This document shows, piece after piece, positions 14,741 to 19,609 of a DNA stretch of 30,966 nt. The DNA is from a virus. The notes beneath the pieces were generated by a model, which made no database searches, was not told the origin of the DNA, and saw only the letters and a program-made list of their open reading frames with translations. Position numbers and translations under genes: made by a program. Numbering within the stretch: the first letter of the stretch is position 1; each line of letters starts with the position of its first letter. The stretch spans positions 1 through 30,966 of the IMG/VR virus record IMGVR_UViG_3300030685_000071; one strand, written 5' to 3'.

Positions 14741-15065
14741 CGAAATTTCTTTTTATAGTTGTATTTTCAGGGTTAAATTGATAACAGAACTGGCTTTCCG
14801 AAATAAAGCAACATGCTATTTTAATAAACAAGTCATAATTTACAGGTTCTACCCATGCCTCTACTGATAATGACTGATGAACTTTTAATTTGTCCAAAAA
14901 GTCATAAACGCTTTTCTTATATGCCCAAAATTCGGATTCACCCATTTTGACTATAAATTCAGTTATCCATGTTGGATCAGCGAGAGAAGCAGGTGCATGA
15001 GTAGATAGATTCATGATAGTAGATTGATTAAGTAAAATAAAATGTTTTTTCATTTCCGGTTCCAT
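14586..15065 (-). CDS. Phage early protein, unknown function
   Basis: Up to 159 residues; the ATG at 15014 (Met18) is an equally likely start and would remove the 38-base overlap with the gene upstream. The middle (about residues 30-95) is helical, with aromatic and cysteine residues and no clear motif. The last 30 residues are of low complexity, rich in G, S, T and P, and are read from DNA that also encodes the start of the 126-residue gene in another frame. The overlap may mean this C-terminus is not under strong constraint. No function is assigned. Confidence 0.5.
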   Translation of the reverse strand: MEPEMKKHFILLNQSTIMNLSTHAPASLADPTWITEFIVKMGESEFWAYKKSVYDFLDKLKVHQSLSVEAWVEPVNYDLFIKIACCFISESQFCYQFNPENTTIKRNFDAQNLERSLALLRSKRRTKEIAGDGRGTGSESGGTPIVPTPEPALQSLLKG

Positions 15066-15348
15066 ACTTCCTCGTTTTTATAGTTGCAAGGAAAGGAAAT
15101 GCTTCTTTTGGTACTTTATCCAGTATTTCTTTTATTGGTGCTGCATTCGTAAAAAATTTACGTTCTATGTTTTCATACCGTATTCGGACAACATATCTTC
15201 CTTTTCCATACTTGGTTTCGACATCAGGATCAAAATCAATAATTTCTATTTCGCAATTGGTTACTTCGGTAATTGAAATTTGTTGTACAGGGAATATGTT
15301 TTTGTTTTCAGTTTCTTTTATTCCAAGGTCAGAGAATGTTTTCATCAT
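15028..15348 (-). CDS. Small protein directly downstream of the DGR reverse transcriptase
   Basis: A 106-residue protein with alternating beta strands and several basic residues (KYGKGRYVVRIRYENIERKF, about residues 46-65) and an FFTNAAPIKEIL segment. The gene overlaps the end of the reverse transcriptase gene by 20 bases, so the two are probably co-translated. It could be a nucleic-acid-binding protein, either for replication or as a DGR accessory factor, but it does not look like the known accessory proteins Avd or HRDC. Function unknown. Confidence 0.55.
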   Translation of the reverse strand: MMKTFSDLGIKETENKNIFPVQQISITEVTNCEIEIIDFDPDVETKYGKGRYVVRIRYENIERKFFTNAAPIKEILDKVPKEAFPFLATIKTRKYGTGNEKTFYFT

Positions 15349-16315
15349 GTAATATTGTTTTTAATAAATGTCTCGAATTGCAATGCTTTGCCCAACCGAG
15401 CCAGGGACTAATCTGAATTTTATATTGCTTTTCATCCAGATTTTTTTTATTTAATTTAGCAACCTTCCTGCAGAATTTTTTTTTAATCGATTTTCGCATT
15501 AAAATATGCGTATGCCGGAACACATATCCGACAAAATCAATCCCTCGCTTATCTACCGGAAACACCTGGTAATTATCTTTTACCTGAAGGTTTAATCTGA
15601 CTGTCATATATTCGCTAATATCAATCAGTAAACTTTGCAAATAAGGCTTATCCGGTGCCAGTATCACAATATCATCTGCATATCGGTAATAGTACTTTAC
15701 TTTTTTATCCTCTTTCAGATAATGATCGAAATATGATAAATATAAGTTGGCAAAAAACTGAGAAAGATAATTCCCGATTGGAACCCCGGGCGCACTATCA
15801 ATTATACCATCAAGCAGATTTAAAAGCTTTGTATCCTTTATTTTCTTCCGGATGATACTTTTCAATATCTCATGATCAACACTAGGATAGAATTTTTTAA
15901 TATCAAGTTTCAGACAATAGGTAGTTTTTTCAACTTCATTTAAATCCCGTTTAATCGTTTTTAATACTCCGTTAATGCCTTTGCCCTTTATGCATGCATA
16001 ACTTTGTGAAATGAAAACTGACACCCATATTGGCTCCATGACATTCATTATTGCATGGTGAACTACTCTATCTCTAAATGGAAGCCGGTATACTGTTCTG
16101 ACCTTTGGATCAGTAATAGTAAAAATGCTGTATTCAGATGTTTTGTATGTTCCGTTCACCAGTTCTGCATGCAATTGGTTGATGTTGGCTTCCAGGTTCT
16201 TTTCAAAGAGCTTAACCCCATAACTATTGGACTTCCCTGATTTAGCCTTGTTACATGCTAAATACAGGTTATCCTGGCTGCATACTTGATCATATAAATT
16301 TCCTATTCTTTTCAT
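15329..16315 (-). CDS. DGR reverse transcriptase
   Basis: Error-prone reverse transcriptase of a diversity-generating retroelement. It copies the template repeat RNA and introduces random bases opposite adenines; the cDNA then replaces the variable repeats of the target genes. The 328-residue product has the palm motifs LDIKKFYPSVDH (Asp138), IGNYLSQ (180-186) and YADD (212-215). IGxxxSQ in place of QGxxxSP is diagnostic of the DGR branch. There is no maturase or nuclease domain, and the length is normal. The template repeat lies about 100 bases upstream on the same strand and the two target genes precede it, the standard DGR layout. Confidence 0.95.
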   Translation of the reverse strand: MKRIGNLYDQVCSQDNLYLACNKAKSGKSNSYGVKLFEKNLEANINQLHAELVNGTYKTSEYSIFTITDPKVRTVYRLPFRDRVVHHAIMNVMEPIWVSVFISQSYACIKGKGINGVLKTIKRDLNEVEKTTYCLKLDIKKFYPSVDHEILKSIIRKKIKDTKLLNLLDGIIDSAPGVPIGNYLSQFFANLYLSYFDHYLKEDKKVKYYYRYADDIVILAPDKPYLQSLLIDISEYMTVRLNLQVKDNYQVFPVDKRGIDFVGYVFRHTHILMRKSIKKKFCRKVAKLNKKNLDEKQYKIQISPWLGWAKHCNSRHLLKTILHDENIL

Positions 16316-16417
16316 GCTTTGCTTTTCGTATCGGAGCGTTCAGTTTCCCTACCAGTACCTTTTGAATTAGTTTTTTTTTGGCAAGTGCCAAGGTCTTTGT
16401 CTCTGTAAAATCTTTTA

Positions 16418-16495
16418 GCATAGGTGCGAGCTGTTCCCTGCATTCGCATTCGAGTTATCGTAATTCGTATCATTGAAAACGAAAGCCCTGGAGGA
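16418..16495 (-). repeat. DGR template repeat (TR)
   Basis: A 78-base block between the second target gene and the reverse transcriptase, aligned without gaps to both variable repeats. Read in the target frame it contains five AAT/AAC codons placed where the targets vary, plus other adenine codons. A TAA directly after the block shows it is not a target gene. Against VR1 there are 13 mismatches, 12 at template A; against VR2 there are 16, all at template A. The invariant bases are C, G and T apart from a few unmutated A. Confidence 0.95.
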
Positions 16496-16525
16496 CAACC
16501 CACAAAGACAAACAACCTTTAATCT

Positions 16526-16933
16526 CTATTTCTGAATAATTACAGTCCAAATATCTAAGAACTGTTCACCGGCATACTTTGCCAGTACTCTAGTTTTAAA
16601 GCAAAGTCGCGAGCCGTACCCCGCATACGCATGCGAGCAATCGTAATACGTATCAGTGAAAACGAAAGCCCCGGAGGACATATAGAAGTATGGATAGTAT
16701 TTATACTGATTACTATCATTCCAGTCAGCTTTCCACCCTTCGTTCAGTGCTTCAGCAATTACAATAATTTTGTATTGCGCTTTAAAATATTCACGTAAAT
16801 CTTCCGGTAAATTTGAAAAGTCAGGTACTTCAGGACGTAAGGTTTCTTTCATTGCATCTTCGAAAGTCTTAATACGAATCATCACATTTTCTTTCACTTC
16901 TTTTTCTGCTACTTTTGTTTCTACTTTTTTCAT
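16526..16933 (-). CDS. DGR target (variable) protein 1
   Basis: A 135-residue protein whose C-terminal part (residues 86-111) is encoded by a variable repeat. The conserved frame is EALNEGWKADWND (61-73), YKYYPYF, SSGAFVF, then variable positions, then GYGSRLC and a closing helix AKYAGEQFLDIW. This plan matches small phage DGR targets expected to have a C-type-lectin-like fold that displays variable residues on its surface. Variable positions hold T, Y, C, H, Y and Y where the template has Asn codons. There is no signal peptide, lipobox or membrane segment. It lies between target 2 and the template repeat. The ligand is unknown. Confidence 0.9.
   Translation of the reverse strand: MKKVETKVAEKEVKENVMIRIKTFEDAMKETLRPEVPDFSNLPEDLREYFKAQYKIIVIAEALNEGWKADWNDSNQYKYYPYFYMSSGAFVFTDTYYDCSHAYAGYGSRLCFKTRVLAKYAGEQFLDIWTVIIQK
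16601..16678 (-). repeat. DGR variable repeat VR1
   Basis: The 78-base segment of target gene 1 that matches the template repeat. Thirteen differences are present; twelve fall on template adenines and one (a C to A change in the CAC codon) does not. Similarity stops after the shared TGC codon, which may mark the edge of the initiation-of-homology region. Confidence 0.93.
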
Positions 16934-16979
16934 GTTTGTTTGATTTTTATTTGCCTTTCAGCGATAGTTGTATTTAAAA

Positions 16980-17450
16980 TTAAAACATAAATCCTTTGAA
17001 TATATCAACAAATTGTTTTCCTGCATATGTGGCCAGTTCAGCACTCGAAAGGCAAAGGCGCGAGCCGTACCCCGCAAACGCAATCGAGTAATCGCAACCC
17101 GCACCATCGAAAACGAAAGCCCCGGAGGACAACCGGAAATAAGGATACCACTTTGCTTGGTTGCCATTGGTCCAGTCTGGAACCCAACCCTCGTTCAATA
17201 CCTTTATTACTGTTTTTAATTTTCGGTAATTTATTTCATCTGGAGTGAATCCAAAACTTTTAAGTTCCGATTCATTTAGTGGCTTTTCTCCTAACTCCGT
17301 ACAGGCATCTTCATACGTTTTAATCCGATCAGTAATTTTACCAGAGAAAAATTCTTTACCAAAGGAATCTTCCAGTATCTCTTTAAATTCTGGTGTAGCA
17401 GTCTTATACAGGATACGTGCTTTTGAATCTTCAATTTGTAATAGTTTCAT
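16980..17450 (-). CDS. DGR target (variable) protein 2
   Basis: A 156-residue paralogue of target 1, located just upstream. Shared parts are RIKTYEDAC (42-50), VLNEGWVPDWTNGNQAKWYPYF (split by small differences) and the C-terminal AGKQFVDIF helix. The variable segment spans residues 108-133. At template Asn codons it carries D, G, Y, I, F and Y. It has a longer N-terminal extension than target 1 and no secretion signal. Having two targets means one template can diversify two proteins independently. The start at 17450 directly follows a chain of very small genes. The role is not known; a recognition protein on the virion or cell is possible. Confidence 0.9.
   Translation of the reverse strand: MKLLQIEDSKARILYKTATPEFKEILEDSFGKEFFSGKITDRIKTYEDACTELGEKPLNESELKSFGFTPDEINYRKLKTVIKVLNEGWVPDWTNGNQAKWYPYFRLSSGAFVFDGAGCDYSIAFAGYGSRLCLSSAELATYAGKQFVDIFKGFMF
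17052..17129 (-). repeat. DGR variable repeat VR2
   Basis: The 78-base segment of target gene 2 aligned to the template repeat. All sixteen differences lie at template adenines, and the non-adenine positions are fully conserved within the block. VR1 and VR2 differ from each other mainly at these same sites. Confidence 0.95.
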
Positions 17451-19051: not shown

Positions 19052-19609
19052 TTATTTCATTTTAAGCCGGTTCCACATGTCAATCAGTTGTGACGTCTTA
19101 TGGTAGCCATACCGGGTCAACATGTTTTGTCGGTGTTTCTTTACTGTATTAAGCGCAATACATAAGGAGTCGGCCACTGCCGTTTCATCAAGTCCTAGTA
19201 CCAGTAGACGAAGAACATTAACTTCAGATTTTCGGAGATTGGTTGATTGTACCGGGTAACAGGCCTCTTTTAAATTGCATCCTTCGCATTCTCCCCTTTG
19301 TGGACAATAGCAATATTCAACATTTTGATTTCCATTTTCATCAATATCCACCAAGTGATCAGATTGTCCGAAGTGGAGTTTAATCCACATTTTCACTATT
19401 AAAAATTCGAAATACATTCGGTTCGGTTGACTTTGGTAATATCTTTTTTCAAGACATTTTAAAGCAGCCGGATATTCTTCCGATAAATCTTCAATATGTG
19501 CTTCAATGATATGTCTATGAGTTTGATTTAATATATAGGCCTTTTCTTCCATCTCGGCAACCAATACATTCCCTTTATTTACCACATATTCAATTTCGCG
19601 TAGTCTCAT
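19052..19609 (-). CDS. LuxR/GerE-type transcription regulator with cysteine cluster
   Basis: A 185-residue DNA-binding protein. The C-terminal part (about residues 124-182) is a LuxR-type four-helix domain, with LRKSEVNVLRLLVLGL, then ETAVADSLCIALNTVKKHRQNM as the recognition region. In front of it is a cluster C100, C102, C108, C111, C117 that could hold zinc or an Fe-S centre. The N-terminal part is helical. It is the second gene of a two-gene operon divergent from the repressor; its start overlaps the preceding stop (ATGA). It probably activates or times the early operon. The trigger is unknown. Confidence 0.75.
   Translation of the reverse strand: MRLREIEYVVNKGNVLVAEMEEKAYILNQTHRHIIEAHIEDLSEEYPAALKCLEKRYYQSQPNRMYFEFLIVKMWIKLHFGQSDHLVDIDENGNQNVEYCYCPQRGECEGCNLKEACYPVQSTNLRKSEVNVLRLLVLGLDETAVADSLCIALNTVKKHRQNMLTRYGYHKTSQLIDMWNRLKMK

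Follow-up and report, generated by a model that had tools for sequence, protein, structure and literature searches.

The diversity-generating retroelements (DGRs) of phages are understood mainly as diversifiers of tail fibres that work with Avd. DGRs in general and distal variable repeats (VRs) are known, as are DGRs with several targets (PMC6642488), and second VRs near counter-defence genes have been reported in Bacteroidota gut prophages (PMC12629997). In Bordetella phage BPP-1, the DGR works with Avd on a single C-lectin tail-fibre target, and a hairpin follows the VR (PMC3240598). The locus described here has two small targets without similarity to tail proteins and, after its reverse transcriptase (RT), a different conserved accessory gene. 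Comparison with known systems supports the view that dedicated, paired non-tail targets together with a non-Avd accessory make up a new DGR variant.

The window, the whole stretch of DNA that was analysed, is a linear virus record of 30,966 nt, which may be incomplete. Its annotation also includes an integrase, a repressor-like regulator, a tape measure protein and a head protease, and its host phage is a temperate phage of Bacteroidota bacteria. On the minus strand, the first target gene (T1), the second target gene (T2), the template repeat (TR) and the RT follow one another within 15329-17450, and a 106-aa gene then overlaps the end of the RT (Table 1). An earlier note, made from the letters of the sequence, had proposed a DGR with one template and two tandem targets in this interval. 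That proposal is borne out, and the parts sit where it had put them. It had also called the DGR complete. The RT, the TR and the two VRs are indeed present, but no Avd was found, and the conserved accessory gene lies mostly outside the interval. Upstream of the cassette, at 19052-19609 of the window, is a LuxR-type (GerE) regulator, with homologues upstream in several relatives (L012, L019, L026).

Table 1. Positions of the DGR features in the window, with the evidence for each.
Feature	Position	Strand	Evidence and remarks
T1, first target gene, 156 aa	16980..17450	-	ORF; phrog_11581 E 3e-31; AF2 pLDDT 92.3; ancient paralogue lineage
VR1, variable repeat of T1	17051..17131	-	17 mismatches vs TR, 16 at TR A
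T2, second target gene, 135 aa	16526..16933	-	ORF; phrog_11581; without the N-terminal extension of T1
VR2, variable repeat of T2	16600..16680	-	13 mismatches vs TR, 12 at TR A
TR, template repeat, 81 nt ungapped	16417..16497	-	six AAY codons; fixed border adenines
Structured spacer RNA, TR to RT	16316..16416	-	hairpin 16378-16391; helix 16355-16359 with 16333-16337
DGR RT, 328 aa, IGNYLSQ and YADD	15329..16315	-	RVT_1; phrog_1423; BPP-1 RT E 2e-54; tree
Accessory gene, 106 aa, phrog_19665	15028..15348	-	20-nt overlap with RT end; predicted OB-fold

Adenine bias is pronounced in both repeats. In the ungapped 81-nt alignment, 28 of the 30 mismatches between the TR and its VRs fall at template adenines, which make up 21 of the 81 TR bases (binomial P = 9e-15); the two others are a T>C change in VR1 and a C>A change in VR2. 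The template had previously been given as 78 bases and the mismatches as 29 in all, both slightly short, while the count of 28 at adenines stands. Variable sites coincide with the AAY codons of the template, as had been claimed, and all six are altered in both VRs. Relatives were retrieved by RT and by target and then scanned for TR/VR pairs. Among 151 unique pairs, mismatches occur at 66% of A positions and at 0.5-0.9% of positions with other bases; because the pair finder prefers repeats with an adenine bias, this is not an unbiased rate. Tabulated by template base, the mismatches are adenine-specific here and in the relatives alike.

Activity of the DGR in nature is strongly supported by comparisons between near-identical contigs. 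Over 7.75 kb, the window and L003, the same virus from another sample, differ only in VR1 and always at TR adenines (three differences in the BLAST alignment and two at the contig edge). All six differences between L032 and L033 are in VR2 at TR adenines, with none in the 8,772 nt outside. L031 differs from L034 at 11 positions in VR1, VR2 being identical, and from L036 at 9 positions in VR2, VR1 being identical. Differences confined to a single VR indicate that the targets have been rewritten recently and independently. The independent retrohoming of the two targets suggested by the earlier note is thus upheld, and related contigs do vary in their VRs.

A subset of the adenine mismatches behaves differently. 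Ten of the 28 in the window are the changes CCA>CCG, GCA>GCG, AGC>GGC, CAC>CGC and CTA>CTT, present in each VR; they are alike in VR1 and VR2 and fixed across relatives. Consequently, they do not represent diversification, and about 18 of the mismatches first counted as diversity carry that signal. In relatives, core TR adenines give mixed VR bases, whereas border adenines give fixed ones. Numbered from the Arg codon of GSRL, position -13 is G for 26 of 26 distinct TRs, +1 is G for 56 of 56, +5 is T for 41 of 41 and -6 is G for 56 of 60; sites -61, -54 and -63 are nearly fixed. Several of these changes are synonymous (GCA>GCG, CTA>CTT, TCA>TCG), so selection on the protein is not the explanation. 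A sequence-context bias of the RT was rejected, as the same trinucleotides are mixed in the core (CAG at -26, CAC at -21), and context data from BPP-1 predict no fixed outcomes either (PMC12875486). Mismatch at bases other than A is 2.1% in the 5′ border, 0.6% in the core, 3.5% in the 3′ border and 62% beyond, and the low border values mean that the borders are still shared sequence. The end of the tract does not by itself explain site -13, which sits between two rewritten codons. The most economical reading is that border adenines act as a discriminator between template and target, in the manner of IMH* and IMH. They offer a concrete handle on how the two are told apart.

In the cassette, the T2 stop is 25-55 nt from the TR, and the TR is 161-195 nt from the RT in all but one of 61 representatives. 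At L026:5444-6001 the latter distance is 557 nt, with an apparent insertion in the spacer region. A 22-sequence alignment of the spacer contains two covarying helices, with 98.5% of cells paired (88.3% in shuffled alignments) and 17 double changes (3.7 in shuffled alignments). Because the structure came from a prediction on that very alignment, the test is tilted in its favour. A conserved hairpin or cruciform after the VR was also sought and rejected: stems of at least 5 occur in 42 of 128 cases against 34.6 by codon shuffles, no clear enrichment, and their positions are not conserved.

The two target genes have a long separate history. Across about 100 related loci, the first target usually has 150-160 aa and the last 121-135 aa. 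On a tree built from the non-VR part of 130 targets in 61 dereplicated loci, the label 'first target' changes 6 times, against a shuffled mean of 43. By this sequence comparison the tandem pair represents two paralogue lineages of ancient origin, which rules out a recent tandem duplication. Some loci carry a third copy; that at L076:310-756, with its own VR, lies about 4 kb upstream of the TR, apart from the tandem pair. In three loci (L058, L060, L061) RTs nested in the short-target clade are accompanied by long targets (437-484 aa), and target type has therefore switched within the clade. The AF2 model of T1 has an N-terminal helical domain, a C-terminal VR hairpin and loop, and C-terminal helices. 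It has no PDB match at E <= 0.001 in a structure search and no known fold by sequence or structure, from which a new fold does not follow; its BFVD relatives are uncharacterised phage proteins.

T1 and T2 both lie in the early/replication region of the genome. At 16 loci the neighbours of the cassette are primases, AAA/transposition proteins, regulators and methyltransferases, and no tail families are among the commonest matches of the flanking genes. No third match to the TR occurs in the window. In the cultured Bacteroides phage Versailles, one TR is common to the C-terminus of a tail protein and a remote early T-like gene (sites L182:10181-10762 and L186:7678-7940; the T-like gene is annotated 'tail protein'). 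This sharing suggests that the VR unit of the targets may be a divergent C-lectin-like piece. The T-like target of LoVEphage (L214:13833-14417) is near genes for Lar-like restriction alleviation and DNA methyltransferases, in agreement with the second VRs near counter-defence genes (PMC12629997).

The accessory gene is kept in place after the RT at 112-118 loci by BLAST and at 157 of 188 by HMM, a conservation that neighbouring phage genes do not share. A reverse search starting from the accessory found an RT directly or closely upstream at 31 of 31 loci, several of them on the same contigs as in the RT-based set. Homologues occur near the RT in Versailles and after it in LoVEphage. Two crAss-like phages yielded none, and neither did the surroundings of RTs below about 45% identity, with one Bacteroides MAG (L162) as the exception. 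The protein matches no Pfam family. Its AF2 model (pLDDT 88.9) has the order beta1-beta2-beta3-alpha-beta4-beta5 of an OB-fold, and its structural neighbours are mostly OB domains (SSB, RPA70, PriB, Teb1, PRD1 P12; best Z 6.0, none at E <= 0.001). Avd itself was not found at the locus with Pfam or the PF22296 profile. This bAvd model, which may miss divergent Avd, had no match in the window or in 17 related virus records, some possibly incomplete; it did match elsewhere in two bacterial genomes, so the model works. PMC10053308 relays from Wu et al. 2018 (NAR) the suggestion of one DGR-associated protein that lacks a Pfam entry, and the 106-aa protein may be that protein. A literature search that left broad surveys aside found no work joining a DGR with an OB-fold accessory.

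Among solved structures, the best relative of the RT is the DGR RT of BPP-1 (8ub7, E 2e-54), while group II RTs reach 6e-17. A quick tree, in which BalMu-1 and a Vibrio plasmid RT are poorly placed, puts it among DGR RTs, as a member of a supported clade of RTs from Bacteroidota phages. Group II introns form the outgroup, on a very long branch, and the RT thus groups where the earlier note expected. The best NCBIfam and PADLOC hits are general RT families (group II, UG/DRT), those of NCBIfam below their cut-offs, and might suggest an RT from a group II intron, a retron or a defence system beside incidental repeats. Given the structural match, the tree position, the restriction of mismatches to adenines and the VR-only variation, we regard this as exceedingly improbable, and the sequence establishes the locus as a DGR. 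The accessory invites more doubt. It could simply be a phage gene that happens to be linked, such as one encoding a single-strand-binding protein for replication, and the DGR would then need no more than its RT and RNA or would draw on an Avd that is undetected or supplied by the host: OB-fold binders serve many uses, replication genes adjoin the cassette, and crAss-like DGRs with related RTs do without the gene. Yet it accompanies the RT in unrelated phage backbones, overlaps the RT end, passes the reverse search without exception, and is present near the RT even in Versailles and LoVEphage, whose main target is a tail protein. We therefore think mere linkage unlikely. The protein is probably, on its predicted fold, a nucleic-acid binder that does the job of Avd by holding TR RNA or cDNA. 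An OB-fold protein so strictly linked would amount to a second way of doing that job.

What the targets bind is harder to judge. T1 and T2 might be small receptor-binding proteins associated with the virion, their genes lying apart from the tail module, and the DGR would then switch host range as in BPP-1. Tail proteins make up most of the phage DGR targets known (PMC8144416), and the Versailles TR, by serving a tail protein as well as a T-like protein, indicates that variable frameworks are shared and keeps a tail function close by. Against this, neither Pfam nor PHROGs detects tail similarity in T1 or T2, their early position recurs in diverse phages, and the search for a third VR in tail genes found none in the window or in nine long relatives (contigs of 35-48 kb). 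A virion role is thus a genuine possibility, though not one we would expect to prevail. Small size, absence of tail similarity and location among early genes make an intracellular host factor, such as a defence protein, the more likely partner over a cell-surface receptor, a role inside the cell being read solely from gene position.

We propose that a transcript containing the TR and the structured spacer would be copied by the RT, with random bases placed opposite adenines. The cDNA would then replace the matching 3′ part of T1 or T2, each independently, with the OB-fold protein as the nucleic-acid-binding accessory in the place of Avd. T1 and T2 would use their displayed variable hairpin and loop to bind a partner that changes fast. 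Taken as a whole, the account of an active temperate-phage DGR with two independent non-tail targets, an OB-fold accessory and a partner more likely to be intracellular is, in our judgement, reasonably probable. We speculate, more tentatively, that this DGR lineage has moved off the tail altogether: its conserved paired products would be small cytoplasmic early binders directed against changing host factors such as defence proteins, the OB-fold accessory would substitute for Avd, and border adenines would mark template against target. If the only targets are indeed a fixed pair of small non-tail proteins, this widespread Bacteroidota lineage would extend targeted hypermutation to phage functions inside the cell. 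It makes the question of what distal DGR targets bind directly testable.

Several known systems share parts of this arrangement. The RTs of crAss-like phage DGRs (PMC7290462; L184, L185) are up to 59% identical, but these DGRs have a single target in the tail module and no accessory of the present family. Read with table 11, the tail target of the crAss-like cr52_1 (L185:6495-7736) contains two in-frame stops, a sign that this phage may recode stop codons. In tentaclin phages (PMC10743442) and Bacuni phages (PMC8143477), one DGR likewise serves two target genes. Their targets, however, are proteins of the receptor-binding or adhesin type, and Avd is present in Bacuni phages.

With the BPP-1 DGR, the locus shares the RT family, adenine-specific mutagenesis between TR and VR, a VR near the 3′ end of the target and an RNA spacer after the TR. 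Unlike BPP-1, it has a predicted OB-fold accessory, two small non-tail targets and no conserved hairpin after the VR. The distal VRs known from Bacteroidota gut prophages, from LoVEphage and from Versailles (PMC12629997) resemble it in having a T-like target in an early or counter-defence region and a homologous accessory near the RT. In those phages, the target adjacent to the RT is a tail protein and the T-like gene is remote, whereas in the window the T pair is the only target and lies inside the cassette.
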